Source: Verrucomicrobiota bacterium (GTDB lineage Bacteria; Verrucomicrobiota; Verrucomicrobiia; Limisphaerales; SXTU01). Taken from it: 35,723 nucleotides of DNA. Both the position numbers and the translations under genes were made by a program. The number at the start of each line of letters is the position of its first letter. Position 1 is the first letter of the stretch. Below are positions 4,431 to 34,900 of the stretch, one piece after another. The notes under the pieces were generated by a model that saw nothing but the letters and a program-made list of their open reading frames with translations, ran no database searches and was not told the DNA's origin. The stretch lies in assembly GCA_016235545.1 (NCBI GenBank), contig JACRKB010000266.1, forward strand, positions 1 to 35,723, given 5' to 3'.

Positions 4431-7400
4431 ATGAACGACAACAAAATGAGCACACAGGCGCGGTGGCAGGGATTGCCGCCCAAGCAGGGACTTTACGACC
4501 CGCGGTTCGAGCACGACGCCTGCGGCGTCGGGTTCGTGGTGAACATGAAGGGCAAGAAGTCCCACGAGGTCGTCCAGCAGGGAATCCAGATTCTCGTCAA
4601 CCTCGACCATCGCGGCGCGTGTGGCTGCGAGCCGAACACCGGCGACGGCGCGGGCATCCTCATCCAGCTCCCGCATAAATTCTTCACCAAGGCCGCGAAG
4701 GAAAACGGTTTCACGCTCCCCGCTCCCGGTCGCTACGGCGTGGCGATGATTTACATGCCGAAGGAGGAGGCCGACCGGCATCACTGCGAACGCGTGTTCG
4801 AGCGCGTCGTCCGCGAGGAGGGCCACTCGGTCCTCGGCTGGCGCACGGTGCCCACGGACAATTCCACGCTTGGGCCCACGGCCGTCGCGACGGAGCCGGC
4901 GATTCGCCAGTGCTTCATCGAGCGTAATGTGCGGAAGGCGAAGGACGAGCTCGCGTTCGAGCGGAAGCTCTACGTCATCCGCAAGCGCGCGCTGACGGAG
5001 ATTCGCAACTCCGGCGAGCGCGGCACGCAGGAGTGGTATATGCCGAGCGTCTCCTGCCGGACCATCGTTTACAAAGGCATGCTGATGCCCGCGCAGGTGG
5101 ATGCGTATTATCCCGAGCTGCGCGACCCCGACATGGAGTCGGCGCTGGCGCTCGTCCACTCGCGCTTCTCGACGAACACTTTCCCAAGCTGGGAACGCTC
5201 GCACCCGTATCGCTACATCGCGCACAACGGCGAAATCAACACGCTGCGCGGCAACATCAACTGGATGCACGCGCGGCAGTCCATGTTCGAGAGCGACCTC
5301 TTCGGCAAGGACATCAAGAAGGTTTTCCCCATCATCAACCCGAACGGGTCCGACTCGGCGATGTTCGACAACTGCCTCGAACTGCTCGTGCTCGGCGGCC
5401 GCCCGCTCGCGCACGCGATGATGATGATGATTCCCGAGCCGTGGACGAATCACGAGTCCATGAGCGACGAGCGCAAGGCGTTCTACGAATACCACTCCTG
5501 CCTGATGGAGCCGTGGGATGGGCCAGCGTCCGTCGCGTTCACCGATGGCGTGCAAATCGGCGCGTGCCTCGACCGCAACGGCCTGCGCCCCTCGCGTTAC
5601 TACGTCACGAAGGACGACCTCGTCATCATGGCGTCGGAAGTCGGCGTGCTGGACATCGCGCCGGAGCGCGTGTTGCAGAAGGGTCGACTCCAGCCGGGCC
5701 GCATGTTCCTCGTGGACACTTCGCTCGGACGCATCGTCGCCGACGAGGAAATCAAGGAAGCCATCTGCAAGTCGCAGCCTTACCGCCAGTGGATTAACGA
5801 AAACATGGTGGAGCTGGACAAGCTGCCCGACGCGCCGCACTTGCCTGAGCCGGACCACGACACCGTGCTGCACCGGCAGCAGGCCTTCGGCTACACCTTC
5901 GAGGACTTGCGGATGCTCATGGTCCCGATGGCGCGCGACGGCGTCGAGGCCGTCGGCTCGATGGGCACGGACACTCCCATCGCGGTGCTCTCGCAGAAGC
6001 CGCAGTTGCTCTACAACTATTTCAAGCAGCTCTTCGCGCAGGTCACGAACCCGCCGATTGACTGCATCCGCGAGGAGATTGTCACGAGCGCCGAGACGAC
6101 CATCGGCTCCGAGCGCAACCTGCTCAACCCGCAGCCCGAGAGCTGCCGGCTCATCGAGTTGAAGCAGCCCATCCTCAGCAACGAGGAGTTCGCGAAGCTC
6201 AAGCATCTCAATCACCCGCACTTCAAGTCCGCCACGCTGCCGACGCTCTTCAAAGCTTCGGAAGGCACCGGCGGGCTGGAGAAGGCGATGGACGACTTGT
6301 GCGAAGCCGCGACGAAGGCCATCAAGGACGGCGCGAACATCATCATCCTCTCCGACCGCGGCGTGAACGCGGAGAACGCTCCCATCCCCGCGCTGCTCGC
6401 GGTGGCAGGCGTGCATCACCACCTCATCCGCGAAGGCACGCGCACGCGTGTCGGCCTTGTGCTCGAGTCCGGCGAACCGCGCGAGGTGCATCACTTCTCG
6501 CTGCTCATCGGCTACGGCTGCGGCGCCATCAACCCGTATCTCGCCTACGAGACGCTCGACTACATGATTCGGCAGGGCTTGCTGGTCGGCATTGACCACA
6601 AGACCGCCGTCAAGAACTTCACCAAGGCCGCCGTGAAGGGCGTCGTGAAGGTCGCCTCGAAGATGGGCATCAGCACCATCCAGAGCTATCGCGGCGCGCA
6701 AATCTTCGAGGCCATCGGCCTGAGCGACGCCGTCATTGACAAGTATTTCACCTGGACCGCCTCGCGCGTCGCCGGCATCAGCATCGAGGACATCGCCAAG
6801 GAAGTTCTCACCCGCCACGAGCACGCGTTCCCCGACCGCCCGACCAACGGCCACACGCTCGAAGTCGGCGGCCAGTATCAATGGCGCGCGGACGGCGAGT
6901 TGCACCTCTTCAACCCGCAGACCGTCCACAAGCTCCAGAAGGCCGTCCGCAACGCGGATTACAAGACCTTCAAGGAATACAGCGCGCTGGTGAACACCCA
7001 GCTCAAGGATATCTACACGCTGCGCGGCCTGCTGGAGTTCAAGCCCGCCACGGCGATTCCCATCGAGGAGGTCGAGTCAGTCGCGACCATCGTGAAGCGC
7101 TTCAAGACCGGCGCGATGAGCTACGGCTCCATCTCCAGCGAATCGCACGAGACGCTTGCCATCGCGATGAACCGCCTCGGCGGCAAGAGCAACACCGGCG
7201 AAGGCGGCGAAGACCCCGCACGCTACACTTGGACCAACGACAAGGGCGACTCGAAGAACAGCGCCATCAAGCAGGTCGCGTCTGGTCGCTTCGGTGTTAC
7301 GAGCCTCTACCTCACGCACGCGAACGAGCTTCAAATCAAGATGGCCCAGGGCGCGAAGCCCGGCGAAGGCGGCCAGCTTCCCGGCACCAAGGTGTATCCG

Positions 7401-9059
7401 TGGGTCGCGAAGGTGCGTCACTCAACGCCAGGTGTCGGCCTCATCTCCCCGCCTCCGCACCACGACATCTACTCCATCGAGGACCTCGCGGAGTTGATTC
7501 ACGACCTCAAGAATTCCAACCGCCGCGCGCGCATTAGCGTCAAGCTGGTCGCGGAAGTGGGCGTCGGCACCATCGCGGCCGGCGTCGCCAAGGCGCACGC
7601 GGATGTTGTCCTCATCTCCGGTTTCGACGGCGGCACGGGCGCGTCGCCTCAGACCTCCATCAAGCACGCGGGCATTCCGTGGGAGCTCGGCCTCGCCGAG
7701 ACGCACCAGACGCTCGTGTTGAACAACCTTCGCTCGCGCATCGCCGTCGAGGCGGACGGCCAGTTGAAGACCGGCCGCGACGTCATCATGGCCGCGCTGC
7801 TCGGTGCGGAGGAATTCGGCTTCGCCACCGGCCCGCTTGTGGCGATGGGCTGCATCATGATGCGCGTTTGCCATCTGAACACCTGCCCCGTCGGGGTCGC
7901 GACGCAGAACCCGAAGCTGCGCGGCCTCTTCCCCGGCAAGCCCGAGGACGTGGTCAACTTCATGACCTTCATCGCGCAGGAAGTTCGCGAGCTGATGGCC
8001 CAGCTTGGCTTCCGCACCATCGCCGAGATGGTGGGCCGCGTGGACCGGCTCGAAGCCCGCAAGGCCGCTGACCATTGGAAGGCGCGCGGCCTCGACCTCT
8101 CCAGCATCCTGCACGCGCCGGATGTGGCTGATGGCGTGGGCCGCTATTGCCAGATGGCCCAGGACCACGGCCTGGAGAAATCCATCGACATGACGCACCT
8201 GTTGGAGGCGTGCAAGCCAGCGATTGACCAGAAGCAAAAGGTCGTCGTGCAGCTTCCGATTCGGAACATCAACCGCGTCGTCGGCACGATTCTCGGCAAC
8301 GAAATCACCCGTCGCCACGGTGCGGCGGGCTTGCCCGAGGACACGGTGCAACTGCACTTCAAGGGTTCCGCCGGCCAGAGCCTCGGCGCGTTTGTGCCGC
8401 CCGGCGTGACCATCCGCCTCGAAGGCGACGCCAACGACTACTGCGGCAAGGGCCTCTCGGGCGGCAAGCTCATCATCTACCCGCCCGGCGGCTCCACCTT
8501 CCGCGCCGAGGAGAACATGATTATCGGCAACGTCGCCCTCTACGGCGCGACGAGCGGCGAGGCTTACTTCCGCGGCATGGCTGGCGAGCGCTTCGGCGTC
8601 CGCAACTCCGGCGTGAAGACCGTCGTCGAGTCCGTCGGCGACCACGGCTGCGAATACATGACCGGCGGCACGGTTATCGTGCTCGGCAAGACCGGCCGCA
8701 ACTTCGCGGCGGGCATGTCCGGCGGCGTCGCCTATGTGCTGGACGAGGACGGCACCTTTGCCCGCAACTGCAACAAGCAGATGGTCGGCTTGCAGAAGCT
8801 GGAGAACGCCGACGAAATCGCGGACGTGCGCGCGTTGATTGAGAAGCACGTCCTCTACACCGGCTCCGAGCGGGGCCGCAACGTGCTCGCGCTCTGGAAC
8901 GCAAACGTGCCGAAGTTCGTGAAGGTGATGCCCAAGGACTACGAGCGCGTGCTCCAGGCCATCAAGAAGGCCCAGGCCGCCGGCCTCACCGGCGACGACG
9001 CGCTCAACGCCGCCTTCGAAGAAAACTCCAAGGACGCCGCGCGCGTGGGTGGTGGTTGA
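4431..9059 (+). CDS. gltB: Glutamate synthase (NADPH) large subunit
   Basis: GOGAT large subunit, about 1542 residues, the normal family size. With GltD it converts glutamine plus 2-oxoglutarate to two glutamates in the cytoplasm. The N-terminal class II amidotransferase domain has its nucleophile at Cys31 (HDACGVGF) if translation starts at ATG 4431, implying removal of a roughly 30-residue propeptide as in other GltB proteins. Next come the central domain, the FMN-binding synthase domain ([16 protein letters not shown]) and a cysteine cluster spaced C-x5-C-x4-C ([12 protein letters not shown]) for the 3Fe-4S centre. A C-terminal Gly-rich GXGXG beta-helix domain ends the protein. Start alternatives are GTG 4425 and ATG 4446; none has a Shine-Dalgarno sequence. 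gltD follows after 58 bp. The long antisense frames across it are not genes. Confidence 0.97.
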
Positions 9060-9117
9060 TTAGCCGCCCCGAACATCGCAGCCGAGCCAACACCGAACCA
9101 TTTTCCTCAACCGACTC

Positions 9118-10596
9118 ATGGGCAAACCCACCGGATTCCTCGAATTCACCCGCGAACTTCCCGCCGACCGCTCGCCGCTGGCGCGCGTCGCTGACTGGCG
9201 TGAGTTCCACGACCACATGCCGGAGCCGAAACTCCGCGAGCAGGGCGGGCGCTGCATGGATTGCGGCGTGCCCTTCTGCCACACCGGCCAGCTCATCAGC
9301 GGCATGGCCAGCGGCTGCCCCATCAACAACCTCATTCCCGAGTGGAACGACCTTGTCTATCGCGGCCGTTGGCAGGAGGCGCTCGAACGTCTGCACAAGA
9401 CGAACAACTTCCCCGAGTTCACCGGTCGCGTCTGCCCCGCGCCCTGCGAAGGCTCCTGCGTGCTCGGCATCAATTCGCCGCCCGTCACCATCAAGAACAT
9501 CGAGTGCAGCATCATTGACCACGGCTGGGAAAACGGCTGGGTCAAACCCGAACCGCCTGCGAATCGCACTGGCAAGAAAGTCGCCGTCGTCGGCTCCGGT
9601 CCCGCCGGGCTCAGCGCTGCCGCGCAGCTCAACAAGGCCGGGCACCGCGTGCTCGTCTTCGAGCGCGCGGACCGTCCCGGTGGCCTGCTCATGTATGGCA
9701 TTCCCAACATGAAGCTGGAGAAGAACGAGGTCGTTCTGCGCCGCATCAAGCTGATGGAGCAGGAGGGCATCAAGTTTGTCTGCAACGTCGAGGTCGGCAA
9801 GGACGTGACCTCCAAGCAGCTCATGGACGAGTTCGACGCCGTTGTGCTCTGCACCGGCGCGACCAAGCCGCGCGACCTGCCCATCGAGGGCCGCTCACTC
9901 AATGGCGTCCACTTCGCGATGGAGTTTCTCCATAGCAACACCAAGGCGCTCCTCGACGGCAAGGACGCACCCATCAGCGCGGCGGGCAAGGACGTCATCG
10001 TCATCGGCGGCGGCGACACCGGCACGGACTGCGTGGGCACCGCGATGCGCCACGGCTGCAAGAGTCTTGTGCAGGTGGAAATTCTGCCGAAGCCCCCGCA
10101 AGACCGCGCCAAGGACAACCCGTGGCCGGAGTGGCCCAAGACCTACAAGCTCGACTACGGCCAGGAGGAGGCGAAGGCGAAGTTCGGCGACGACCCGCGC
10201 ATCTACCTCACCACCGCGACGAAGTTCGAGGACGACGGCAAGGGCAGCGTCAAGGCCGTCCACCTCGTGAACATCGAGTGGACCAAGAACGACAAGGGCC
10301 AGTTCGTCCCGAAGAATGTGCCGGGCACCGAGCGCGTCGTCCCGACGCAAGTCGTGTTGCTCGCGATGGGCTTCCTCGGCCCCGAACAGCCCCTCCTCGA
10401 AGCCCTCGGCGTCGAGCGCGACCCGCGCTCCAACGTAAAGGCCGAGCACGGCAAGTTTCAGACGAGCCTCCCGAACGGCTTCGCCGCCGGCGACTGCCGC
10501 CGCGGACAGAGCCTCGTCGTCTGGGCATTCAACGAAGGCCGTGGTGCCGCCCGCGAGTGCGACCGCTACCTGATGGGCAAGACCGAGCTGGCGTGA
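9118..10596 (+). CDS. gltD: Glutamate synthase (NADPH) small subunit
   Basis: A 492-residue GltD that passes electrons from NADPH through FAD to the iron-sulfur centres of GltB. The N-terminal region holds the cysteine clusters for the low-potential 4Fe-4S centres: Cys46, Cys49 and Cys54 in CMDCGVPFC, then GCPINN, then [10 protein letters not shown] dinucleotide fold for FAD follows ([12 protein letters not shown]), and a second one for NADPH ([11 protein letters not shown]). The C-terminal [13 protein letters not shown] region closes the FAD site. The start ATG at 9118 fits the family N-terminus; there is no Shine-Dalgarno sequence. It sits 58 bp after gltB, in the usual gltBD operon order. 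No insertion or missing key residue was seen. Confidence 0.97.
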
Positions 10597-10683
10597 AGTA
10601 GGACAGCGCGTCCCGCCTGTCCCTCTGATTGGAAAGCTCCGGCCCAAGCGGTCGGTGCCGCTGCGTTACTCTGACTCTCTTCA

Positions 10684-10780
10684 GCGCAGAGGCGCAGAGT
10701 GCGCAGAGATTCGCAAAGGGTTATCGGGTTTCCTGCGACTGAATTCGACCTTCTCCGCGCTCCTCTGCGTCCTCTGCGCC
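10684..10780. repeat. Imperfect palindrome of GCAGAG-type repeats
   Basis: The left arm at 10684-10708 contains three iterations of a GCAGAG word (GCGCAGAGG...GCGCAGAG); the right arm at about 10753-10780 contains its complement (CTCTGCGTCCTCTGCGCC). The arms are imperfect. It lies in the 285-bp gap between gltD and panB. Just after gltD, GGACAG and CTGTCC form another short inverted repeat near 10602-10623. Confidence 0.6.
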
Positions 10781-10839
10781 ATTGCGGTAAGATGACGTCT
10801 CCCTCTCACCGCACGCCAACGATCCAAGCTCAGCTGGAA

Positions 10840-10858
10840 GTCAGGCTGGAAGCCTGAC
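10840..10858. repeat. Short hairpin before panB
   Basis: GTCAGGCT (10840-10847) pairs with AGCCTGAC (10851-10858) around a GGA loop. It resembles the GCAGGCC-AGC-GGCCTGC hairpin inside element 1 at 1082-1098. It ends 23 bp before the chosen panB start. A role in panB expression is possible, but a repeat unit is the simpler reading. Confidence 0.5.
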
Positions 10859-10881
10859 CTGCTTTGGGGTTTGCTTCACCC

Positions 10882-11649
10882 GTGGACGCCGCCACCAAAG
10901 TCACGCCCGACACCATCCGCGCCATGAAGGCCGCGCGACGGCGCGTCGCCGCGCTGACCGCTTACGACTACCCGATGGCTCGGCTCCTCGATGAAGCGGG
11001 CATCCCCATCCTCCTCGTCGGCGATTCGCTGGGCATGGTCGTGCTCGGCTATCCGGACACCACGCACGTCACGCTCGCCGAGATGGAGCATCACATTCGC
11101 GCCGTCGCCCGCGCGCGGCCCAGCGCGTTGCTCGTCGGCGACCTGCCGTATCACACCTACCAGTCGCCCGCGCAGGTCGTCATCAGCGCGCAACGCCTCG
11201 TCGCCGCCGGTGCAGAAGCCGTGAAGGCCGAGGGCGGACGCGACATCCTCCCGCAGATTCGTGCCATCCAGGCCGCTGGCATTCCCTTCATGGGCCACCT
11301 CGGCATGTTGCCGCAGCACGTCCTGGAGGAAGGCGGCAAATACCGCATCAAGGGCAAGGACGACGCGGGCCGCGCCAAGCTGCTCGATGACGCCACCGCG
11401 CTTGCCGAGGCCGGCGTCTTTGCTGTCGTGCTTGAACTCGTCACCCCGCCCGTCGCCAAGGAAATCACCGCGCAGTTTCCATTCGCCACCATCGGCATCG
11501 GCTCCGGCCCGGACTGCGACGGCCAAATCCTCGTGACCCACGACCTCCTCGGCGCGTTCCCCTGGTTCACGCCGAAGTTCGTGCAACCCAAGCTCCGCGT
11601 CGGCGAGGACGTGCGCCGCGTCGTCCGCGAGTGGGTCGCCAGCCTGTGA
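10882..11649 (+). CDS. panB: 3-methyl-2-oxobutanoate hydroxymethyltransferase
   Basis: Ketopantoate hydroxymethyltransferase, first step of pantothenate and CoA synthesis: it adds a hydroxymethyl group from 5,10-methylene-THF to 3-methyl-2-oxobutanoate. The 255 residues from GTG 10882 match the family length. Visible motifs are ALTAYDYPMARLLDEAG near the N-terminus, LLVGDSLGMVVLGY with a metal-binding Asp, KAEGGRD with the substrate-side Glu, and MGHLGMLPQ. The start is uncertain. TTG 10864 is possible, while ATG 10924 would cut into the conserved N-terminus; GTG 10882 best fits the family, although no Shine-Dalgarno sequence precedes it. No other pantothenate gene is adjacent. A hairpin sits just upstream and a palindrome downstream. 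Confidence 0.93.
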   Translation: MDAATKVTPDTIRAMKAARRRVAALTAYDYPMARLLDEAGIPILLVGDSLGMVVLGYPDTTHVTLAEMEHHIRAVARARPSALLVGDLPYHTYQSPAQVVISAQRLVAAGAEAVKAEGGRDILPQIRAIQAAGIPFMGHLGMLPQHVLEEGGKYRIKGKDDAGRAKLLDDATALAEAGVFAVVLELVTPPVAKEITAQFPFATIGIGSGPDCDGQILVTHDLLGAFPWFTPKFVQPKLRVGEDVRRVVREWVASL

Positions 11650-11664
11650 ACCCAAGCGCAACAG

Positions 11665-11854
11665 AACGCAACGCAATGGCGCAAAGATGCAATGACGCAA
11701 AGGCGGAGAGGGTTCCGAATGTCCGCGAATTTCACGAATGGACGCGAATCATGATAAGACATCGGGCGAGAGTCGCGCGAAGTCCGCACTTCTTTCTCGT
11801 TCATTTGCGTAATTCGCGGGCAGCTTCGCTTCGCGCCTTTGAGCCTTTGCGTTA
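11665..11854. repeat. About 190-bp imperfect palindrome between panB and moaC
   Basis: Outer arms: AACGCAATGGCGCAAAG (11670-11686), with related words up to 11704, against the complement in 11832-11854 (CGCGCCTTTGAGCCTTTGCG). Inner arms: TCCGCGAATTTCACGAATGG near 11722-11741 against the complement of 11797-11820 (ending AATTCGCGGG). The element fills most of the panB-moaC gap. No gene or clear promoter is seen in it. Confidence 0.65.
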
Positions 11855-17557: not shown

Positions 17558-18652
17558 ATGCCCAAAATCTTAATCGTTGACGATGACGCGCAGCTTCGCT
17601 CGACCATCCAAATGGTCCTCAAGCTGAAGGGCTACGAGGTGATTGATGCCGACAACGGCGTCACCGCTCTCAAGCTGGCGCGCGCCGCCCTGCCCGACAT
17701 CATCATCAGCGACATCAACATGCCGCAGGCCGACGGCTTCGCCGCGCTGGCCGAACTGCGCAAGGATCCCGCCACCGCGCACATTCCCTTGATCCTGATG
17801 ACTGGCGAGTCCGAGCCTTCCGGCATGCGCAAGGGCATGGAGCTCGGCGCGGACGATTTCCTCACCAAGCCCTTCGCGATGAACGCGCTGCTCAAGGCAG
17901 TCGAGGCCCGCCTCAAGAAGCACGATGTCGTCAAGGAGACCGCCGAGAAAAAGCTCGCGGAGCTGCGCGCCAACCTGAGCCTAATGCTGCCCCACGAGCT
18001 GAACACGCCGCTGGTGGGCATACTCGGCTATGGCGAGATCATCAGCACTTGCGCGGACTCGCTCCAGCCCGGCGAACTGGCGGAGATGGGCAGGAACATC
18101 CTCGAGTCCGGCCAGCGCCTCCAGCGGCTCATCCAGAATTTCCTCATCTACTCCCAGCTTGAACTCCTCCGTGCCGACGACAAGGAAATCGCCTCGATGC
18201 GAGCCAAGCGCACCGATGATGTGAACGAGACGCTCACTCTCGTCGCGCACACAAAGGCCCAGTCGCTCAGCCGGCTGGCTGACCTGCGCACCGATATCTG
18301 CCACGGTGCCATCTGCTGCGCGGACGACCTCCTGAGCAAGATGGTGGAGGAAATCCTTGGCAACGCCTTCAAGTTTTCCAAACCCGGCACGCTCGTGAAG
18401 GTCAGCGCGATGCCCGAGGGCAGGTTGTTGAAGATCGTCATCAGCGACCAGGGCCGCGGAATGAAGCCCGAATACCTCCACAGCATCGCCGCCTACGTGC
18501 AGTTTGACCGCCGCCAGCACGAGCAGCAGGGCAGCGGCCTGGGATTAGTCATCGCCAAGCGGCTCATCGAGCTGCACGGCGGCACGCTCGCGCTGGAGAG
18601 CGCGGAGAACACTGGCACCACCGCCACCATCCGGCTGCCCATGCCCGCTTGA
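17558..18652 (+). CDS. Soluble REC-HisKA-HATPase hybrid histidine kinase
   Basis: A 364-residue cytoplasmic signalling protein. Residues 1-120 are a receiver domain with acidic triad Asp8-Asp10, phospho-acceptor Asp52 (ISDINMP), Thr82 and Lys104-Pro105. After a short helical linker comes a HisKA-type dimerisation helix with His146 in LMLPHELNTPL; the residue before His is Pro rather than the usual Ser. The ATPase domain has an N-box (EEILGNAFKFSK), the G1 box DQGRGM and the G2 box GSGLGLVIAKRLIE. No membrane segment or sensor domain is present, so input probably arrives as phosphate on the receiver. The next gene begins 18 bp downstream and encodes a REC-Hpt-REC protein, so the three genes probably form one operon and one phosphorelay. 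Its stimulus is unknown. Confidence 0.92.
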   Translation: MPKILIVDDDAQLRSTIQMVLKLKGYEVIDADNGVTALKLARAALPDIIISDINMPQADGFAALAELRKDPATAHIPLILMTGESEPSGMRKGMELGADDFLTKPFAMNALLKAVEARLKKHDVVKETAEKKLAELRANLSLMLPHELNTPLVGILGYGEIISTCADSLQPGELAEMGRNILESGQRLQRLIQNFLIYSQLELLRADDKEIASMRAKRTDDVNETLTLVAHTKAQSLSRLADLRTDICHGAICCADDLLSKMVEEILGNAFKFSKPGTLVKVSAMPEGRLLKIVISDQGRGMKPEYLHSIAAYVQFDRRQHEQQGSGLGLVIAKRLIELHGGTLALESAENTGTTATIRLPMPA

Positions 18653-18670
18653 ACCTCCCGGTTCGCATCC

Positions 18671-19930
18671 ATGTCCGCAGGCAACAAAATCCTCATTGTC
18701 GAAGATGACCCGATCATTGCGGACCTGTATCAGCGCAAGTTCGCCGCCGAGCACTTCACCGTCGAGCTGGCCGGCGATGGCATCACCGCGATGGAAGCCC
18801 TGCGGTCCCACCAGCCCGACGTGGTGCTGCTCGACCTCCAGCTCCCGCAGGTCAACGGCATCGAGGTGTTGAAGTTCATCCGCGCCACACCAGAGTTGCG
18901 CGCCCTGCCCGTCATCGTTTTCACCAACGCCTACCTTGGCAACATGGTGCAATCCGCCTGGAAGGCAGGCGCGAACCGCTGTCTCACCAAGGCCATCTGC
19001 ACACCCCGCCAGGTCGTGGATGTGGTGCGGCTCACCTTGATGGAAGCGCAGGCCAAAGCTGAAGCCGGTGCCGCAGAAGCCGCCGTGCCGCCCAGTCCCG
19101 ACCCTGTGATGGACAGCGCGCCGCCGCTGACCCCGGACGAGTCTGAACGCGATGCCGCCTTTCAGGGCGAAGTGCGCCGGCAGTTCATGCAAGCCTCGCC
19201 GCAGATGCTCGTGGACGTGCGTCAGCGCTTGCAGGCAGTCGTCAAAAGCGAGGCGGACGTCGCGTATCTCCGCTGGCTGGAGGAGCGCGCGCAACTGCTC
19301 CGCGAGATGTATCGCACTCTGCACTCTCTCACCGGCAAGGCGGGCCTTGCAGGGTTCAAGCAGGTGGCCCAGCTCTCCAGCGCGCTTGAGGCATTCCTGC
19401 GCGAACTCCACGAGGCACCGCAGAACGCGAACTCCTCCTCGCTCCGCACTTTCGCCCACGCGATGGATTTCCTCTCTCGGCTGCTCGAAATTGAGGGGCA
19501 GGGAGAGCACGACACCAGCACCACCCCGCTGGCGCTCATCGTGGATGATGAGGTCTTCTCGCGCCGCTCAATCATTTCTGGCCTGGAGAAGGCTGGCATC
19601 GCCTATGTGAGTTTGGACAACCCGCTCGAAGGCTTGGAGATGCTCCAACGCCAGCGCTTCGACCTCGTGTTCCTCGACATCGACATGCCCGAGATGGACG
19701 GCTTCACGCTCTGCCAGAGGCTCCGCCAGATCCCCGGCTACGCGCGCACGCCGGTCGTCTTTGTCACCGGCCTGAACGACTTTCAGATGCGGGCCCGTTC
19801 CTCGCTGGCGGGCGGCAGCGACATCATCGCCAAGCCCTTCCTGCCCATCGAACTTGCTGTGAAATCACTCACCCATATGTATAAGGCCCGCCTGCTGCCG
19901 ACCGATCGTGGCTCCGGCACGGCCCCCTGA
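18671..19930 (+). CDS. REC-Hpt-REC response regulator, paralog 1
   Basis: A 419-residue protein with two receivers and a histidine phosphotransfer domain, and no DNA-binding or enzymatic output. REC1 (about 6-122) has phospho-acceptor Asp55 in LLDLQLPQ and a conserved Thr in VIVFTNAYLG; the usual Lys-Pro is Lys-Ala (CLTKAICTP). An Ala/Pro linker follows. The Hpt domain (about 165-275) has His218 in LHSLTGKAGLAGF, which matches the Hpt motif of His followed by a Lys/Gly-rich turn. REC2 (about 285-405) has Asp336 in FLDIDMPEMDG and a normal KPF. It is paralogous along its length to the next gene. Role inferred: phosphate relay between the upstream kinase and the other receivers. Confidence 0.9.
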   Translation: MSAGNKILIVEDDPIIADLYQRKFAAEHFTVELAGDGITAMEALRSHQPDVVLLDLQLPQVNGIEVLKFIRATPELRALPVIVFTNAYLGNMVQSAWKAGANRCLTKAICTPRQVVDVVRLTLMEAQAKAEAGAAEAAVPPSPDPVMDSAPPLTPDESERDAAFQGEVRRQFMQASPQMLVDVRQRLQAVVKSEADVAYLRWLEERAQLLREMYRTLHSLTGKAGLAGFKQVAQLSSALEAFLRELHEAPQNANSSSLRTFAHAMDFLSRLLEIEGQGEHDTSTTPLALIVDDEVFSRRSIISGLEKAGIAYVSLDNPLEGLEMLQRQRFDLVFLDIDMPEMDGFTLCQRLRQIPGYARTPVVFVTGLNDFQMRARSSLAGGSDIIAKPFLPIELAVKSLTHMYKARLLPTDRGSGTAP

Positions 19931-20003
19931 ACCACTCCGTGGCGTTAGCCAGCCACGTCACCACGACAGATGCAATCCAACCCTTGAAGAACTGGTTGCC
20001 CCG

Positions 20004-21578
20004 ATGAAAAAAGTCCTCATTGTCGAAGACGACGCCATCATCGCCAACATCTACCAGCGCAAGCTCCAGATGGATGGCTTCCAAGTCCAGCACGCGGCCG
20101 ACGGCGAACTGGCCATGGAGATGATCAAGTGCAATCAGCCCGACATCATCCTGCTCGACCTCCAGCTCCCAAAGGCCAACGGCATCGAAGTCCTCAGGTT
20201 CATACGCGCCCGCGAGGAATCCAAGACCCTGCCCGTCGTCGTCTTCACCAACTCCTACCTCGGCACCATGGTGCAATCCGCGTGGAAAGCCGGGGCAAAC
20301 AAATGCCTCACCAAGGCCATTTGCACGCCCAAGCAAGTCTCCGACGTCCTCCGCGCCACCCTCGCCGGTGAAGATTCCGTCGGAGGCCCCCCGCCCGGCG
20401 AGGCCAGCACGATCAAGATGGTGGTGCCCGCAAAAGCCCCGGCCCCAGCCGCAGCCGCTGGCGGCACGATTAAGATGGCTCCCTTGGATTCCCCTCCTGC
20501 TGCCAAGGCCGAGGAGGCATCGAAGCTCTCCGGCCTGCTGAAGATGACTTCGCAGCCCAAGCCCGCCGCTCGCGCGCCACAGGTGCCAAAAAGCCTGTCC
20601 ACCGCCGCCGCAAGGCCCGGCGCTGGCGACATCCCCCTCAAGTTAGCGGGAGAAGGCGCACCCATCGCGATGCAGGTCGCACCCGCAGGCGGAGCCGTCG
20701 GCTTTGGAGGGATCAAGATGGAAGGCCTCAGCCTCCCTGGCGCACCCGCGATGCCAGCAAGCCCTGCCCAGGAATACATAGCCCCCAGCGAGCACACCCT
20801 CCTCGAGGTGGAGGCAAACTTTCAACACGAGCTGCGCCGCGGCTTCTCGGAAAACTTTCCGCAGTTCATCGGCTTCCTCCGCCAGCGTCTCCAGGCCTTC
20901 GTCAAGAACGAGAGCGACACCGCCAACCTCCGCTGGATGGAGGAGCGCAGCGCCATCCTCTTCGACATGTATCGCAAGACGCATTCCCTCACCAGCGGCG
21001 CGGGCGTGGCCGGGTGCCCCGTCATCGCCCGCCTCTCCTCGCCATTCGAGGCGCTCCTCACCGAGCTTTACGAAAACCCGAAGAGCATCAACCCCTCAGC
21101 CATCCGCACGCTCGCCCAGACCGTGGACTTCCTCGCGCATCTCTCCAACGATGTGGACGCCGCCGAGGCGATCAACCTCGGGGACGCCAGCGTGCTGGTG
21201 GTGGACGATGAAGCCCTCTCGCGCAAGGCCGTCATGCGCGGCCTGGAGAAAGCAGAGCTAAAGGCGATGGATGTGGCCGACTCCGCAGCGGCCTTCGAGC
21301 AGTGCAAGAAGCAGACCTTCGACCTCATCTTCCTGGACATCGACATGCCCGGCATGAACGGCTACGACCTCTGCAAACAAATCCGCTCGCAGCCCCAGCA
21401 CGCCAAAACCCCCGTCGTCTTCGTCACCGGACTCACCGACTTCGGCAGCCGCGCCAAGTCCACCATGAGCGGCGGCACCGACCTCATTGGAAAACCCTTC
21501 CCTATCATCGAACTGGCGGTCAAAGCCCTCACCTTCCTGATGAAGGCTCAGTTCAAGCCAGGAGCGAAGCCCGCCTGA
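20004..21578 (+). CDS. REC-Hpt-REC response regulator, paralog 2, with long Ala/Pro linker
   Basis: A 524-residue paralog of the preceding protein. ATG 20004 (MKKVLIVEDDAIIA) is the receiver-domain start; an in-frame start at 19908 would overlap the upstream gene and add 32 residues of no known domain. REC1 has Asp52 in LLDLQLPK and again Lys-Ala in place of Lys-Pro (CLTKAICTP). A linker of about 140 residues rich in Ala and Pro carries short recurring motifs, TIKMVVP, TIKMAPL, LLKM and GIKMEGL. The Hpt-like domain has His327 in KTHSLTSGAGVAG, and REC2 has Asp445 in FLDIDMPGMNGYD with GKPF. No output domain is present. It starts 73 bp after paralog 1. The recurring IKM motifs could be binding sites for a partner; that is inference. 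Confidence 0.9.
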   Translation: MKKVLIVEDDAIIANIYQRKLQMDGFQVQHAADGELAMEMIKCNQPDIILLDLQLPKANGIEVLRFIRAREESKTLPVVVFTNSYLGTMVQSAWKAGANKCLTKAICTPKQVSDVLRATLAGEDSVGGPPPGEASTIKMVVPAKAPAPAAAAGGTIKMAPLDSPPAAKAEEASKLSGLLKMTSQPKPAARAPQVPKSLSTAAARPGAGDIPLKLAGEGAPIAMQVAPAGGAVGFGGIKMEGLSLPGAPAMPASPAQEYIAPSEHTLLEVEANFQHELRRGFSENFPQFIGFLRQRLQAFVKNESDTANLRWMEERSAILFDMYRKTHSLTSGAGVAGCPVIARLSSPFEALLTELYENPKSINPSAIRTLAQTVDFLAHLSNDVDAAEAINLGDASVLVVDDEALSRKAVMRGLEKAELKAMDVADSAAAFEQCKKQTFDLIFLDIDMPGMNGYDLCKQIRSQPQHAKTPVVFVTGLTDFGSRAKSTMSGGTDLIGKPFPIIELAVKALTFLMKAQFKPGAKPA

Positions 21579-25949: not shown

Positions 25950-28900
25950 TCACGGGACGACCTGGATGCGGTAGTAGAGGTTCCGGTTCGTGAGCGCACC
26001 GGAGTGGAGGAAGTTGATGACGCCGCCGGGAGGCGCGACGATGTTCGTCAGCACCAGCCAGTTCGTCGAGACAAGGGTGGTGGCGTATTGGACCTGATAG
26101 GTTTCACCGGGCACCACATCCAGGTCGAAGCCGAAGCTCGTCCCCCCGGTGATCAAGCCGCCGCCAGGTGTGCTCAGGATCTGGATCGGGCCGCTGCTCA
26201 GGAGCACGCCATTCGTGGGCTGCCGTGCCATGACCGTGTAGCCGATGTGCGACGCGCCGGGGTTGAGCACGCCGAAATACCAGTCGCCAACGAGGCTCGT
26301 CCGGCTGGCGTTCGTGCGCACCGTGACGATCTCCGGCTGGGTGCCGGGACGGAAATTCGTGCCGTCGTTCGCCGTGGCCAGCGGGAAGCCGTCCTTGCGC
26401 ACGATGAGGTCCCCCGCTCCGGTGAGGCTGCGCACCTCGAAGAGCAGCGCCTTCTGGCTCGACGGCACGTTGAGCTTGAAGAGCGTGTTCGGCGCGTTGC
26501 CGGGGCTGGTGACGCTGCTCTGCGCCTGGCCGTTCGCCGCAGTCACCACCGTGTAGGGCGTGGCGCTCGCGGCGGTGGCGCGCAGGGTGAAGGCCACCGG
26601 CGCGTTGTCCGCGTTCTGCACTCCGAGATACCATGTGCCGGGCGTGAGCGAGGCTGCGGCGGCGGTGTTGGTGATGAGGAAAATCTGCTCGATGCCAGAC
26701 CCGGGGTTGGCGCTGCGATAATCAAAGGTCTGCGGGGTCGGCAAACTCACCGAGCCGTTGGAGCGGCGCAGGTAAAGATTCACATCCCCATCGGCGGTCA
26801 CGATCTCGAACATCGCGGCGGAGGCGTTGGCCGGCACCTCGAACGAGTAGCCTGCAAGGTTCGCCGTGCGCGGCACGAAGCCGTTGACCAGCGAGCCGCT
26901 GGCCAGCGACGTGATGGGCGGCGCAAGCTCGGTGCGGTCGAAATCCACGCGCACCGTCACGTTGACCGGCGGGCCCGCGCTCATGGCCTGGATGGCGATG
27001 TAATACTCGCTGCCGGGCCGCAGCCGGGCGATGGCATCGGAGTTCGTGGTGACGACGAACGAGCCGGTGGCGGCTCCGGCGAACATCACGACGTTGCCGG
27101 GCGCGCCGGGCGTGGGGATGCTGGCGGGGTTGAAGGTGACCCGCACCGCCGCGCTGGAGGTGATGAGGTTCGTGGCCCCGCTTGCGGCGGAGGGCACGCG
27201 GACCTGGAAATATTGCGGCGTGGTCGAGAGCAGGACGATCGGGTTGTTCACGCTTGTCGGCAGCGAGAGCGCGGTGGTGTTGCTGGCGGCGTAGGAGAAA
27301 TTCAGGCTCCACGACAGCACCTGTGCCGCAGTGTTCGTGGCCCCGGCGCGCGTGTCGGCGATCTGCAGACGCCACGCGGTGTTGGTGACGACGAAGTTGG
27401 TCGGCGAGCCGGCGTTGTTCGTGTAGAAGGTGTTCGTGCCCCACGTGCGCTCGCCCACGAACGTGTTGAGCGTCTCCTCGGGCTGGTAGAAATTCTTCGC
27501 CCGGTAGCGGAAGACGGCTGCCTGGCGGTCCTGAATATTGCCCTCGCCGGGGCCTTCCACGGCCACATACAAATCCACGCCATCCGTGGCGATGGCCTTG
27601 CCGTAGTTCGTGGCCTTGAAACCGAGATTGTTGTAGTTCGTGATGTTGTTCGTCACCACTGAGAGGACCGCCATGTTTTGCAAATCAATCTCCAGCATCA
27701 CCGCGTGAACCGTCTCGTCACTGTTGATCACGGAACCCACGGCGTAGGCGCGGTCGAGAGACTCGATGGCGACCACGGAACTGAGCCAGCTCGTGCGGTT
27801 CAAGCCGAAGTTGGTGGTGAGCGAAAGCAACTGCGTGCCGGTGAGGCTCCACTGCTCGATGAGGTTCGAGCTGTTCAGGATGTTGCCGCCCGCGTAGGCC
27901 CGCCCCACGGCGATGATCTTGTCCCCATAGACGGCCACGGAATCGTATTGCCCGCTGTTGGTCGAGTTCGTCGCCCACAACTGCGTGCCGTTGGTCGTGG
28001 CCATGGACATGAGGAAGGGCTTGTTGTTGAAGGTCAGCGGCACCGTGCTGAGGTTGCTGTAGCCGGCGGCGATCACGTTTGTCCCATATGCCACGGCCAG
28101 CGAGGTCGCAGGCATGTTCGAGGAAATCGGGGCGGCAACGAACACAGCCGCGCCGGTGAATGGCCCTGCCATGGCTGCCGGCGGAACACTGCCGCCCGTG
28201 ACGGCCCCGGCCGCAACTGTCACCGCCACCGATGTGTCCGTCACCGCAGCGGAACCTGACACCGTGCTCCCGAGGAATGCCTGCGGGGCCGTTGCGTATC
28301 CCGACCCGGCGAAAGTGGGGCTGAAGCCGGTGATGTTGGTGTTCGCATCAAACGTCATCCCGATGACTGCCGGTGGCAGGTAGCCGCGCGTCCAGAGGGG
28401 CTGGCCGGTCATGGTGAACTTGGTCAGGAACGGGCGCACGTAGGTGTTGTGGGCAAGATCGAAAGCACCGCTGAAATACGCGTCACCCACGGCGTAGATG
28501 AAGTTCGTGGTCAGGCCGTTCGTGCCGGTCTCCGCGCTCGTGGTCACACCCACATACCGGTCCCGGCTGGGGAAGCCGAACATCTCCGTGTTGAAGACCG
28601 AGTTGGTGAGGCCACGGGAGATCAGCACCGGCGGCACGCCCATCGTGTGGTTCGTCGGGCCGTTGAACGGGAAAAACACTGCGAAGGCGTTCGTCGGCGT
28701 TTGCTGCTGATACGGCATCACCGTGCGGATGATGCGGTTGACGGAGTCGGCGACGAATAGGCCGCCGAAGTGATCCGCCGCGAGGCCGAGGGGAGTGTCG
28801 AACCGCGCAACGGTGCCGTATTCACTGTTCGCAGTGCCCACGCTCCCGGCGGTGCTTCCGGCGATGGTCGTGACGGAACCGAAGGGCGTGACCTTCCGGA

Positions 28901-31900
28901 TCGCGTTGTTCCCGCGGTCGGACACGTAGAGGTTTCCGGCCCCGTCGCGGGTGATGCCAGAGGGGGAGTTAAACCGGGCCGTGGTATTGTTGCCGTTCAC
29001 AAAACCGCTCGCACCAGCCGAGGAGCCAGCCAAGTTGACCCCGCCCCACGCGCCATTCGTGAAGAAGAGCCAGACGATCCGGTTGTTGAGCCGGTCCGCG
29101 ATGTAGATATTGGTGCCGGATAGCGCATTGCAGGAAGTGACAGCCGCTGGGAGCGCAGGAGGCGAAGTGACGGCAAACAGACTGCCGGAATTGAAGTTTG
29201 TGCCTCCCGCAAAATTCGTGGCAACGAAATCAGTTGTTTGATGCACGACCAGCGCGGAAGGCTGGAACGCGCCGAGCGTCGCGACCACTGCGGGCAACAG
29301 GGGGATGGTGGTAATCGTGCCGTTGGTGTCGATCTGGCGGATGGAGTTGTTGCCGGTGTCCGCGACGAACAGCACGACGTTGTTGGTGAGGTTGGTGGTG
29401 GTGCAAATGGAGATGCCCTCGGGGGCGTTCAAGCTGCCAGCAGCGACGTTGTTAAGCCCCGGCCCGACGGAAACATCGCCAAAGGTGCGAATCCATGTGC
29501 CATCTCCCCGGTAGTGCTTGATCAGATTGTTGCCGGTGTCGGCCACATAGATGTCGCCGTTCGTGTGCACCGCCACGCCGCGCGGGTTGTTCAGCGTGTT
29601 GTAGGCGGGGAACCCGTGAACCGCAGGGGTGAGCGTCAGCGGGACGTAGGTTCCGTTCGTGTCCGAGGTCACCGTGGCGGGGCTACTAAAGTCAGCAATC
29701 GAGAGCGCCTGGCTGAACTTCAGGATACGTCCGACCGATGCCCCGTCCACGTCTGCCACGAAGACGTTGTTGGAGTTGTCCAAGGCCACGGCGGTAGGCA
29801 GGGTCAAAGTGCGCGGGTTGGGAGCGGCGGGCAGCGGGGCCGTCAGTGGCGGCGTGCGGAATTCCGGACGATTAGCCGGAAGGTAGGTGAAGAAATCATC
29901 CACCGCGTATTCCACGCCGCTGCTGCGATAGACCGACAGGTAGTTGGTCCAACTGTTCGTGCCGAGCGAATTCGTCGGGTTGACGATGACGCGCATGAAG
30001 CGCGAGTTGCCGCTGAAGAGCAGGTTCGTCACGTAGTTCGTCGCCCGGCCCACGACCGTCGCCGGAGTGAAATCCATCAGCAGCCGGCCCTCGTATTCCA
30101 ACTGCACGCGGTCACGGACGCTGTTCGTGCCCCCCGCATGGGTGAGCGTCACCGAGCCGGCGGTGGAGCCAAGGTCCACGTCAAACACGGAACGGTTGGA
30201 GTTGCCGTTCCACGTGAACTGCGCGGGCGGGGTGTAGTTGCGCGTCTCGCCCACGGCGAACACGCCTTCCACGTTGGCGGCGACACCGCTGAAAAGCGTC
30301 TGCTCGGGTGTCCTGCTGGCGGCAGCGACGGTAGAGTCGCCGCCGCGATAGCCGCTGAAGGATCCGCTCCAGAAGTTGGTGATGGACCAGTTAGTGACAG
30401 GGAAATTGACGAACTGGGTCGAAACGGCGACGCCGCCAATAAAGTTCGTGACGAGGTTGGTGTAATAGAGGTTCGTGACGATGGGCGTGATGTAGGAGAC
30501 GATGAATGCATCGTTGGTGCCCCTGGTGTTCGCAACTCCCGTGCGATTGACGCTGCCCACCATGAAGAGCGAGTGACCCTGATGCGCGAGCGCGCTGGGG
30601 GATTCCTGCGGGGAACTCGGCAGGGGGATGGAGGTGTGGCCAAAGAGCAGGTTGGTCATGTTCGTCACCAGCGTCGGCGGCGAGACGACGGCGGAGAAGG
30701 GACCGGCGATGGACTTGATGGGCACCAGGCGTCCGAGGTTGGTGGATTTGGGCAGGCCAAGTGCGTTCGTGGTCTGCACATGTGTCACGAAGTTCGTGTT
30801 CTCGGTGAAGTTCGCGCGGAGGTTCGCCGTGGTGACGCCGTTGGTGCCGCCCCGGTCCTCGAAGAGCAGCACCTTGCGCCCGCTGGGGCTGATGAGGTGG
30901 ATGACGAGGTCCGAGATGCGCGGGTGAAGGATGGCCATGCCCACGTCCACCCCGGCGATGACCCGGTCCGCCGCCATGTTCATGAAGAGGTTGGTGGTGT
31001 AGTTGTCCAGCAGGGTGACCCCCACGTTGGTGAAGGTGATCTGGCTGTCCGCCACGGCGAGGTTCAAGCCGAGGGTGTAACGCACCGTGAGTGTGACCAG
31101 CCCGGCGGAGTTGTTGATGACGCGGAAATTCCACCGGCCCGGCAGCAAGGACGGAGTGCCGAGGGGGGCGGCTGCTCCACTGACCAGATTGCTCACACTG
31201 GTGGCGGCGATGCGCAGGTGCGGGAAGCTCCCCGAGTCCGTGCCGTCGAGGTCGAAGGTGCCGATGGAGTAGTTCGAGGAGGTCGGGATGAATCCCGGCA
31301 CGCCCGCAAGCAGATCAATGCCCGTGCCTGTCGCCGCCGGCCCCGGCACGCTGCCCAGGCCACCGATCACGTCCACGTCGAGGTTCGTCGCCGTGACAGG
31401 CACGTCGAGGAAGTCCACGAACGACTGCCCGGCCTGCAACGTGATGGTGCGGTAGGAGACGTTTGCGTTCGTGCTGTATTGGTTCGTGTAAGGCCTGATG
31501 TAAATCGAGGCGTAGTCCACGCGGCCCGTGAGCAGGGGTGAGTTGTCATAGACCTCGAAAATCCAAAGGCCAATGGCGTCCTGCCCGACGAGGTCCGTCA
31601 CGTCGCCGGGGCCGTCGGGCGGGTTGCGGAAGTCATCGTATCTGAGGTTGTGGGTCTGCAGGCCGGAGGGCGGCGGGAAGTTCGTCGTCGGCGTGATCGT
31701 GTGGTTGTTGAGCGTGATGGCGGTGCCGTTGAACGTGAGCGTGCCGACGAGGTCGCCGAGGCTCTCGTGTGTGTAGGTGAGGAAGTTGGAGATGCTCTGC
31801 ATCAGGATGTTCGTGGTGCAAACGCCATAAAGCACCACGCCTCCGGGCGCCTCCGGGGTGCCGTCCTGAATGTCTATCGGCGCCGGAATCAGGGTGATGG

Positions 31901-34900
31901 TCACGCCGCCGTTGGTGTCGTTGGTGCTGTAAGGGGCCAATGACGCGGCGGCGAAGAAGCCGTAGGTGCCGCCCTGCTGGTCCTCGGATTTGACGCCGAC
32001 GTAGAAGACCTCGCCAAGCGACGAGTTGGTCAGGCTGATCAGCTCGTTGCCGCCGCGGTTGGTGGAGCGAAGCAGGTTGGCGTGAGACAGAACGGCGGAA
32101 TCCAAGTTTGTCATGTTGAACGCGCTCGGCACCGAGAGGGCGGTTCCGCTGCGCGCGACGAACAGGTCCACGTCCGCCTCGGCGTTGCGGGAACGGGCGA
32201 GGTTGGGCGGCAGGAAGGTGGCGAAGCTGACGAACGGGCCGCCGTTGGTGAGAGGCAGATTGACCACGTTGGTCGTGGTGTTGGTGCTGACTCCGGCCAC
32301 GATGTTGGTGACCACATTCGTGACCGTGCTGACCGCGTAGTTCTGATTTGTGAAAACGTAGAAGTTCCACTGGTTGGTCACGCCGTTGGTGTTGGCATTG
32401 CCCAGGCCGGTGACGGTCCACAGCGGCGAGTTCGCGCCGACGCGCTCGTTCAGGCGCGGGATGCCGTTGGTGATGATGGAGGTCGCGCGGTTTGTGTAGC
32501 CAGAGAAGGCCACGCCGGGAGTCGGGCGCACTGTGACGCTGCGGGCGGGGTCATCCGTGGAGATGACGAGCGAGTAATCCTGCGCGACCTGATTGGTGTT
32601 GGCCGAGACGGCGTTGACGTTGATCTTCCGACCGATGACATAGACTCGGAAGGTGGTGGCGGCGGTCGGCGGGCTGTTGGTCAGCGGGATGTAGGTGTTC
32701 TCGACATTGTTCACCAAGTCGCGCGCGCTGGGCGTGGGAGGCACGGTGGGCTGGGTGACGAGGGCACCAGGCGCAAAGTTGTTGCCCTCATATTGCGCGC
32801 CATTGGCGACGATGTTCGTCACGTAGAGGTCGACGTCGATGACCAGCTTTGTGGAGGAGACGGGGTTGCCGGCGGGGTCAGTCCACGCGAGGGTGATTTT
32901 CAGGAGGTTCGTCTGCGAAACTGCTGAAGGCACCTGCACGTCGTAGGCGTGAAACTGGCCGGTGGCGAGGTGGTTGGTGACGAGGCCGCTCTCCTCGACG
33001 ATGACGATGGGCCGGGTGACTGCGGCGTTGTTGCTGACATAGCCAAACGCGGTAATCGTGGGCAGCGTGTTGCTGAGGGAGGGGATGCCCCAGCCCTGGT
33101 GAGAGACGGTGCTGCTGACGGCGAAGTCGTAGGCGGTGTTGAGCGTGTGCGCGCGGTTGATGAGGAGCGCCTTGTTGAGCGAGGGCTTGTTGGTCTTGGC
33201 ATAGTTGACTCCGAAGAATTCCTCCATGAGCGCGAGCAGGCCGGACACCTTGCCCGCCGCGATGCTGGTGCCGCGCTCATAACGCCATGTGCTGCCCAAG
33301 TCGGCATCGCTCTCTGTCAAGCTGGTGAAGGTGGAGGCGCGCAGCGAGACGACGTAGTCGCCGGGCGCGATGAGGTCGGGCTTGAAGCGGCCCGACGGCC
33401 CCTCGATGCCAACGCCCACGTTGCCGCGACCGGAGATGTCGGACACCTGGCTGGCGCTGTCGGAGTGCGCGGAGGCGAGCGGGTCGTTGGTGGTGCCGGG
33501 GACCAGGCGGAACTGCTCGGACGCGCCGACGGAGATGACGTTCTTGGCGTTGCCCGGGGAGTTGATGCTGTCCGCCGTGCCGCCGGTGCCGCCGGAGTTC
33601 GCGCCGCCGGAGTTGCCCACGGAGAAGACGTGGGTCATGGGCTGGTCGTGGGGGCGGAAGGCCAGCGAGTCACGCACTGCCTCGTCGAAGAGCGCGGAGT
33701 TGATGTCGTAGTTGAAGACGGGATAGCCCCAGCTGTTGTTGACAACGAAGATGTTGGTGGCGAGGGCGGCGTTGGTGATGAGCCAGATGTTGGCGTAGTT
33801 CGTGTAGTCGGTGCTGAAGAGGGAGAGGGGATAAACCCGCGCGCCGGGGGCGATGCCGCGATAGGTCGCGCCGTTGATCGAGCCGTTCACTGCCGCACCG
33901 TCAGCAGCGTCGTTCGCCGCGATGACGCCGGCGATGAAGGTGCCGTGGCCGGGGTTGACGAGGTTCGTGTCGTTGATGGGGCTGTAGGCATTGGTGAAGG
34001 TGCGCCCGGTGAGCTGGCCGTGAGCGAGGTCAATGCCGGAGTCAATGAGGCCGACGAAGACGCCGTTGCCGGTCAGGCCCAGCCAGTTTCCGGCGGGGGC
34101 ATTCGCGGTCGTGGTCGTGGAGACATCGAGGCGCACGCGGGAAAGGTCGTTCATCAGCACGGGCGAGTGATACGCCTCGATGTTCTGCACGGCTGTCATC
34201 TGCGCGAGCGCCACGAGGCTGTCCGCGCGGGGCGCGATGGTGACGACGTGGCCGAAGGGGAAGGGCTGCTCGGACTTCACCTCCGCACCAAGGGCGCGCA
34301 GGTCGGCCCTGGCCTTCTCCTGAGTGCCTGCGAAGAGGACGAGGTTCAGCCAGCGACCCGCAGGCAGGGCCTCGCGTCGCACTGCGAGCGGGAGGAGCGT
34401 CATGTCCAGTTTGTAGTAAGGCTCGAATGGCAGGACGCTCTGCACGCGCTGGGAGACGCGGAGCTGCTGCGCGAGGATCGCGCTGCCGCGCACGAGGTAG
34501 GCGTTGTTCGGCACGTAGCTGACGATCTCCGCGCCCGCGCCGCGCAGCACGTCGCGGAAGCCCTGGTCAATCGCCCCGCGCGCCTGCACGAGCCAGCTTC
34601 CGGGCTCCTCGCCCGCGCGCAGGTGCGCCGGCATTTTCAATTCCAGCGGCTCCCGCGTCTCGACGAGCGCGTTGCGCAGCAAGACTGCGGTCTCGCTGCG
34701 GAAAAACTCGGCCTCGGGTTTCTGCGAGTTGCGGAGGCGGAACGGGAAGCGCGGGTCGCGGCTGAGGGAGAGCAGTTCCGGCGCGGCGGGGGAAGCGGGC
34801 ACGGCGGCATCGCGCGGCGCGGTGCGTCCGGTGAGGACATACGGGAGGCGGGTGAAACGCTCCCAAACAGTGGGGCCGGCGGCGTTGGTCGCGCCGTCGC

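Follow-up and report, generated by a model that had tools for sequence, protein, structure and literature searches.

How could a signalling locus work that encodes a histidine kinase with no membrane sensor and two phosphotransfer proteins with no output domain? The question is raised by three consecutive genes of the window, i.e. the whole stretch of 35,723 nucleotides that was analysed, which comes from a member of the Verrucomicrobiota. The answer towards which we lean, if only slightly, is that they specify a soluble multistep phosphorelay module.

Domain anatomy of the three proteins

The features of the locus are collected in Table 1. The earlier note had described one REC-HisKA-HATPase kinase followed by two REC-Hpt-REC proteins, with five receivers, two Hpt domains and one kinase core in all. 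Pfam and alignments bear out the coordinates and the anatomy, the counts are right, and the Hpt histidines lie where they had been placed, at His218 and His327 (RHR2 numbered from the ATG at 20004). RHR is used here as shorthand for a REC-Hpt-REC protein, i.e. a single chain in which a P1-like Hpt lies between two receivers and which has no kinase.

Table 1. Position of the three genes and of their main elements in the window.
Feature	Position	Strand	Description
REC-HK	17558..18652	+	soluble REC-HisKA-HATPase_c kinase, 364 aa; Pfam and 37-member alignment
REC-HK receiver	about 17567-17905	+	residues 4-116
REC-HK phospho-acceptor His146 codon	17993-17995	+	HELNTP motif
RHR1	18671..19930	+	REC - P1-like Hpt - REC, 419 aa
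RHR1 P1-like Hpt	19154..19519	+	His218 at 19322-19324, HSLTG motif
RHR2	20004..21578	+	REC - linker - P1-like Hpt - REC, 524 aa from ATG 20004
RHR2 P1-like Hpt	20814..21179	+	His327 at 20982-20984, HSLTS motif

The REC, HisKA and HATPase_c domains of REC-HK all exceed their Pfam cut-offs. In the 37-member alignment His146 is conserved in 35 sequences, D52 in 36, and Asn269 and K104 in all 37. With HisKA and HATPase_c domains, the phospho-His, the N box and the G boxes, the protein is a HisKA-type (class I) kinase, which would autophosphorylate at His146.

Each RHR protein has two receiver stretches above the Pfam cut-off (PF00072), with the Asp pair, the phospho-Asp, the Thr/Ser and the Lys. 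In an alignment of 43 sequences, from which one frame-broken row was left out, Asp55 of the first receiver (REC1) is found in 42 members and the Hpt histidine in 41, and Asp336, Thr366 and Lys388 of the second receiver (REC2) are found in all 43 (RHR1 numbering); conservation in the family is highest in REC2. A confident AlphaFold2 model of RHR1, built with 41 aligned members (pLDDT 88.6, pTM 0.84), folds as receiver, four-helix bundle and receiver. The layout is thus seen by alignment and model in RHR1 and its relatives, and by alignment alone in RHR2, in which an Ala/Pro/Gly-rich linker (about residues 125-270) follows the first receiver. RHR2 has an alternative start, an in-frame GTG at 19908 that overlaps the end of RHR1; it is less likely, since a start at ATG 20004 agrees with the RHR1-RHR2 gap in the related locus L042.

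As the earlier note had also stated, none of the proteins looks like a membrane sensor (the highest 19-residue Kyte-Doolittle means are 1.19, 1.15 and 1.39, none of which looks membrane-spanning), and Pfam detects no DNA-binding or enzymatic output domain in the three. From NCBIfam came nothing more specific than generic two-component names, at scores far below the cut-offs. PleD heads the list of whole-chain fold matches, yet a REC-REC-GGDEF protein of the PleD type was rejected, as Pfam finds no GGDEF domain in RHR.

The Hpt domain deserves separate attention. In RHR1 it scores 30.7 bits against a Pfam cut-off of 24.6; in full-length RHR2 Pfam does not report it at E 1e-3. When the middle regions were scanned alone, PF01627 was matched at E <= 0.1 in 42 of 42 members, RHR2 included. 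The best profile matches among the sequences of solved structures are CheA P1 domains (1tqg, 1.7e-9; 2ld6, 2.2e-9; 1i5n, 1.7e-5), the others being mostly designed or synthetic bundles. CheA P1 is also the natural Hpt fold nearest to a model of the Hpt alone (TM about 0.71-0.76, Z 12.7-15.3), as compared to TM 0.46-0.53 for HptB and plant HPt. Foldseek returned no match to this model at E <= 0.001. Designed four-helix bundles rank level with CheA P1 against the model, so that the assignment is decided by the sequence profile and could not be decided by the fold on its own. By profile and model, the Hpt of RHR is CheA-P1-like in both sequence and predicted fold. The phospho-His of the family and Glu240 align on the His and Glu of CheA, the Lys of the CheA/Hpt motif is substituted (by Thr in 34 of 42 members), and the phospho-His is replaced by Arg in 2 of 42. 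RHR was rejected as a CheA: the P1-type Hpt is present, but Pfam finds no H-kinase_dim, HATPase or CheW-like domain.

Apart from the RHR proteins, the Hpt profile matches a single Hpt in the source genome, namely that of the CheA on contig C142; the Hpts of hybrid kinases and the CheA on C146 are unmatched at E 1e-3. The C142 gene is part of a chemosensory cluster (L158, G000:C142, 4834-12260) with a CheA that has two Hpt domains, CheW and an MCP, followed by CheB-like and CheR-like genes as judged from their starts. On contigs from elsewhere the profile found 8 matches among 1174 ORFs of 72 contigs. All of these have a C-terminal receiver, with the Hpt either close to the N-terminus or within a long chain, and none of the 8 has the REC-P1-REC order.

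Gene arrangement, duplication and co-occurrence

The window shares the complete three-gene order with loci L039, L040, L042, L043 and L045. By their cluster genes, L039 (RFVF01000029.1) and L040 (CAMCFN010000094.1) fall in the genus of the window. L041 (G002:C32) has the same order with a broken RHR1 frame, which is due either to decay or to an assembly error; in L181 the contig stops within RHR1, so that the kinase and the first part of RHR1 are left, and L044 carries an RHR1-like gene without kinase or RHR2. Comparison of the window with L042, L039, L040 and L045 indicates purifying selection on each of the three genes (dN 0.06-0.19, dS 0.5-1.1). Since dN is well below dS in each gene and the order is kept in relatives, the cluster is not a product of chance.

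The flanks vary. A sodium:solute symporter gene (Pfam) lies to the left in the window, and likewise in L042 and L181 as judged from the start of the protein; an esterase-like gene is found there in L039, L040, L041 and L045, its domain being confirmed in L039 alone. To the right of the window cluster is an opposite-strand gene with an AAA_26 domain (Pfam), which we take to be BioD-like. These variable neighbours are no part of the system. A promoter and terminator scan gave no signal clearly above shuffled sequence. Farther along the window, at 25950-35000 on the minus strand, an open frame (3016 aa) encodes a subtilase (S8) domain, a P-domain and NHL repeats; its product resembles a giant secreted protease.

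RHR-type proteins occur across the order, in 37 of 58 relatives. In a phylum-wide draw the Hpt profile was matched at E 1e-3 in 42 of 387 genomes, and the six that beat 1e-20 were the source genome, G051 and four others of the same class. Outside the three-gene cluster, core RHR loci were defined by a profile score of at least 125 bits. Among the 25 of these with at least 900 bp available upstream, RHR directly follows a hybrid kinase related to protein L118_7 in 23 (L136, in which the RHR frame runs back into the kinase, was scored by hand; L017 and the first copy in L152, untestable upstream, and the fusion L141 were omitted). The two testable loci without such a kinase are L125 and L036. 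The Pfam domains of L118_7 are REC, HisKA, HATPase, REC, REC and Hpt, the order of the last two being set by eye. The source genome keeps this hybrid kinase with a single RHR at C28 (L118). It also encodes a fourth, very divergent RHR-like protein (L119, G000:C232, 7413-8480, minus strand).

In the tree RHR1 and RHR2 fall into adjacent groups (split support 90/81) within a 15-row set (support 100/96) that is apart from the C28 type. This topology marks a duplication in an ancestor of the lineage of the window's genus. An independent, parallel instance of one kinase with two RHR genes is found in G013, where positions 4503-11845 of locus L152 (G013:C362, minus strand) encode RHR, a hybrid kinase, RHR and an NtrC-type sigma-54 regulator, in this order.

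Full-length relatives of REC-HK (36-54% identity) are found in most RHR-bearing genomes, on contigs other than that of RHR. In other words, REC-HK is an order-wide gene that is unlinked from RHR outside the lineage of the window. A second REC-HK of the window's genus (C266) forms a separate branch. In 30 REC-HK neighbourhoods inspected by eye, sucD-like and membrane-protein genes were common to at least 7 loci, and no common signalling gene was seen.

It is conspicuous that the two genes nevertheless occur together. REC-HK is present in 32 of 37 RHR-bearing and in 1 of 21 RHR-lacking genomes (Fisher 5e-10), in a set of incomplete genomes scored by rules of our own: above 200 bits for REC-HK, and a profile E <= 3e-13 in a non-CheA frame for RHR. 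G015 and G046 were accordingly scored as lacking RHR, their matches falling in CheA frames, as was G057 in spite of a short fragment with an internal stop (G057:C10:485-789), a possible relic of RHR loss. Among the 38 genomes that are at least 90% complete the counts are 19 of 22 with RHR and 0 of 16 without, and the association survives the removal of G005 and G019. A Pagel-type test gave LR 35.6 (p 3.4e-7) on a tree of a single gene, PNPase, with frames picked by similarity, a midpoint root and a flat root prior; the tree covers 54 of 58 genomes, G008 (sequence too short) and G009, G040 and G052 (no usable PNPase) being left out. The presence of the two genes differs jointly between the sister groups G031/G026, G056/G018, G012/G027, G007/G001+G003 and G041/G044. 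The exceptions are G021, G038, G040, G042 and G043, which carry RHR without REC-HK, and G053, which carries REC-HK without RHR.

Since REC-HK tracks RHR across the order though unlinked from it, the kinase and RHR probably form one His-Asp-His-Asp relay, with RHR giving the last three stations. The co-occurrence is the best evidence for a common pathway, in which we infer the direction of transfer. Together with the conserved phospho-sites it supports the phosphorelay reading of the earlier note, and the physical linkage of REC-HK and RHR in the cluster loci is in its favour. Against it, RHR elsewhere adjoins a hybrid kinase, and its main donor may be other than REC-HK. The exceptional genomes just listed, the substituted Lys of the Hpt motif and the two members with Arg at the phospho-His position count against it too.

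The donor might also be a chemosensory CheA, whose ATPase would phosphorylate RHR in trans. RHR would then be a Che output or buffer and REC-HK a modulator, like CheS3. Among solved structures the RHR Hpt is best matched by CheA P1 domains, which are also the main non-RHR matches in genomes, and the source genome has the Che cluster at C142 with its two-Hpt CheA, CheW and MCP. CheW occurs in 28 of 37 genomes with RHR as compared to 5 of 21 without, and a receiver-bearing HisKA-type kinase has a precedent in a Che pathway, according to the accessible part of PMC3868531. On the other hand, 9 of the 37 RHR genomes have no CheW match, the association of CheW with RHR in the control test (LR 14.4, p 0.006) is weaker than that of REC-HK, and CheA was not seen next to RHR at any core or cluster locus. 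We regard a CheA-fed route as improbable.

Search for an output and the proposed relay

No output gene adjoins the three-gene cluster in the cluster loci looked at, in keeping with the earlier note. Around RHR and REC-HK, receiver-bearing neighbours were flagged by phmmer and scanned in part with Pfam. Among those scanned, a DNA-binding regulator directly adjoins RHR in L152 alone. Others are more distant, about 3.8 kb away in L147 and, of the LuxR type, about 5.7 kb away in L119; one more is found in L157, a locus taken for a generic receiver match. Such regulators are also found near REC-HK, head to head with it in L175 and in L187, and at a distance of about 3.3 kb in L173. In L154 a protein with a cyclase domain is encoded about 4 kb further on.

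An output regulator beside the cluster in relatives would, according to the earlier note, tell against its reading, and L152, from a more distant relative, supplies one such case. It would fit a transcriptional branch in which an NtrC-type sigma-54 activator, encoded elsewhere, receives the phosphoryl group of RHR. In G013, RHR, hybrid kinase, RHR and NtrC stand in line, the last RHR ending 217 bp ahead of the regulator, and in G013 and G024 REC-HK is head to head with another NtrC-type gene. As a general output the regulator of L152 was rejected, because its orthologs do not track RHR, and L152 thus does not establish a relocation in the window. The orthologs occur in 22 of 37 genomes with RHR, as compared to 6 of 21 that lack it; within the genus of the window just G000 (partially) and G006 reach 500 bits. 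The second NtrC-type gene does not track RHR either and has its own kinase nearby. We regard a transcriptional branch of this kind as improbable.

The lack of an output domain or a linked output gene would also fit a phosphate sink, in which RHR would draw off phosphoryl groups from various kinases, REC-HK among them, and so set timing, with no dedicated output. Two paralogs adjoin one kinase, and receivers that act as phosphate sinks are on record in the accessible portions of PMC3868531 and PMC10542144. For this purpose one receiver would suffice, whereas three conserved stations and a REC2 that is the most conserved part favour the passing on of a signal; we consider a sink rather unlikely.

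Motility or polarity had been suggested as well. RHR would in that case act on surface motility or cell polarity by protein contact, like FrzZ and RomR in Myxococcus. Divergent RHR paralogs adjoin prepilin or PilM genes in L140, L141, L146 and L155, and three divergent RHR proteins (L138, L139, L144) have very long charged helical tails. PilT is found in 58 of 58 relatives and was dismissed as a marker, being ubiquitous and hence uninformative. None of the 27 core and cluster loci has a gene with a pilin-like motif, as compared to 4 of the 20 divergent ones and 3 of the 30 around REC-HK; i.e. the window type is not enriched, and no enrichment at RHR loci is shown against REC-HK loci. The suggestion thus finds no support at core loci and weak hints in divergent paralogs alone, and we think it very improbable.

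The RHR-like proteins with helical tails, recognised by eye, reach total lengths of 1042 aa or more (L138), 2557 aa (L139) and 1389 aa (L144). Two different families, in L140 and L141, have proteins with two tandem Hpt-REC units and a hydrophobic stretch near the N-terminus, encoded next to prepilin-like genes.

We return to the relay from REC-HK through RHR. As we infer it, from its input through each directed transfer to its output, REC-HK would autophosphorylate at His146 and the phosphoryl group would pass to REC1 of RHR (Asp55 in RHR1), from there to the histidine of the CheA-P1-like Hpt (His218 or His327) and finally to REC2 (Asp336 in RHR1). Phosphorylated REC2 would be the output surface, contacting an unlinked target. 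Since the kinase has no sensor apart from its own N-terminal receiver, the input would come through this receiver from another kinase or a partner protein; candidates are the C28 hybrid kinase and RHR pair of the same genome, or a CheA. The earlier idea that phosphate flow is integrated from elsewhere is therefore plausible, a receiver being the sole recognisable input module of the kinase. In the genus lineage the kinase and RHR genes, unlinked elsewhere, would have been joined, with a duplication of RHR into two branches.

A wider reading is possible, which we put forward tentatively. The order may carry a portable Asp-His-Asp connector, i.e. a CheA-type P1 with a receiver on either side, through which ordinary HisKA kinases could supply a phosphotransfer step of the CheA style. 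It would have been copied, re-paired with a hybrid kinase or REC-HK, and joined to very long helical tails or set next to pilus genes, working by protein contact with no output domain.

If the proposed relay is true, it is a natural case of a four-step relay partitioned anew, and one that bridges chemosensory-type and ordinary kinases, in many families of a phylum that has been little studied; its kinase partner is revealed by co-loss and not by neighbourhood. The locus moreover offers a simple biochemical system, with one kinase and two connectors, and its lineage is a place to seek the output.

Relation to known systems

The two-component parts are ordinary; the REC-Hpt-REC order is rare. 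In the open-access literature, as far as titles and the starts of abstracts go, we found no description of a kinase-less REC-Hpt-REC protein, and we found there no work that brings together Hpt domains, receiver domains and phosphorelays in Verrucomicrobia.

CheA P1 is what the RHR Hpt matches best in sequence and fold, and the two share the aligned phospho-His and Glu (Glu240). Unlike CheA, RHR has no dimerisation, ATPase or CheW-like domains, the motif Lys is replaced, and the P1 lies between two receivers.

FrzZ has two receivers and no Hpt. FrzZ and RomR of Myxococcus xanthus are response regulators of the reversal pathway (PMC3441718, accessible text) and are likened to RHR here by their role. 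According to the same text FrzZ is the output of Frz, and RomR, with an N-terminal receiver, acts with MglA and MglB. Unlike in the proposed RHR route, FrzZ is there phosphorylated by the CheA FrzE.

CheS3, of the Che3 pathway of Rhodospirillum centenum, resembles REC-HK in that an N-terminal receiver regulates the kinase and in having a P1-type partner in the pathway. As described in the accessible part of PMC3868531, it has two receivers, a PAS domain and an HWE kinase domain, whereas REC-HK has one receiver and HisKA.

A further parallel is with the hybrid-kinase relays of the BarA, TorS and ArcB type (HK-RR-HPt and a separate RR). A census of domain orders lists 50 types, including RRHPt, RR1RR2HPt and HKRR1HPtRR2; its accessible part has no kinase-less RR-HPt-RR, and the string RR1HPtRR2 appears there within HKRR1HPtRR2 alone (PMC4558063). 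The hybrid-kinase relays have the same four His-Asp-His-Asp stations and the same domain types as the relay proposed here, but in the latter a soluble kinase encoded separately would provide station 1, and a single protein lacking an output domain would provide stations 2-4.
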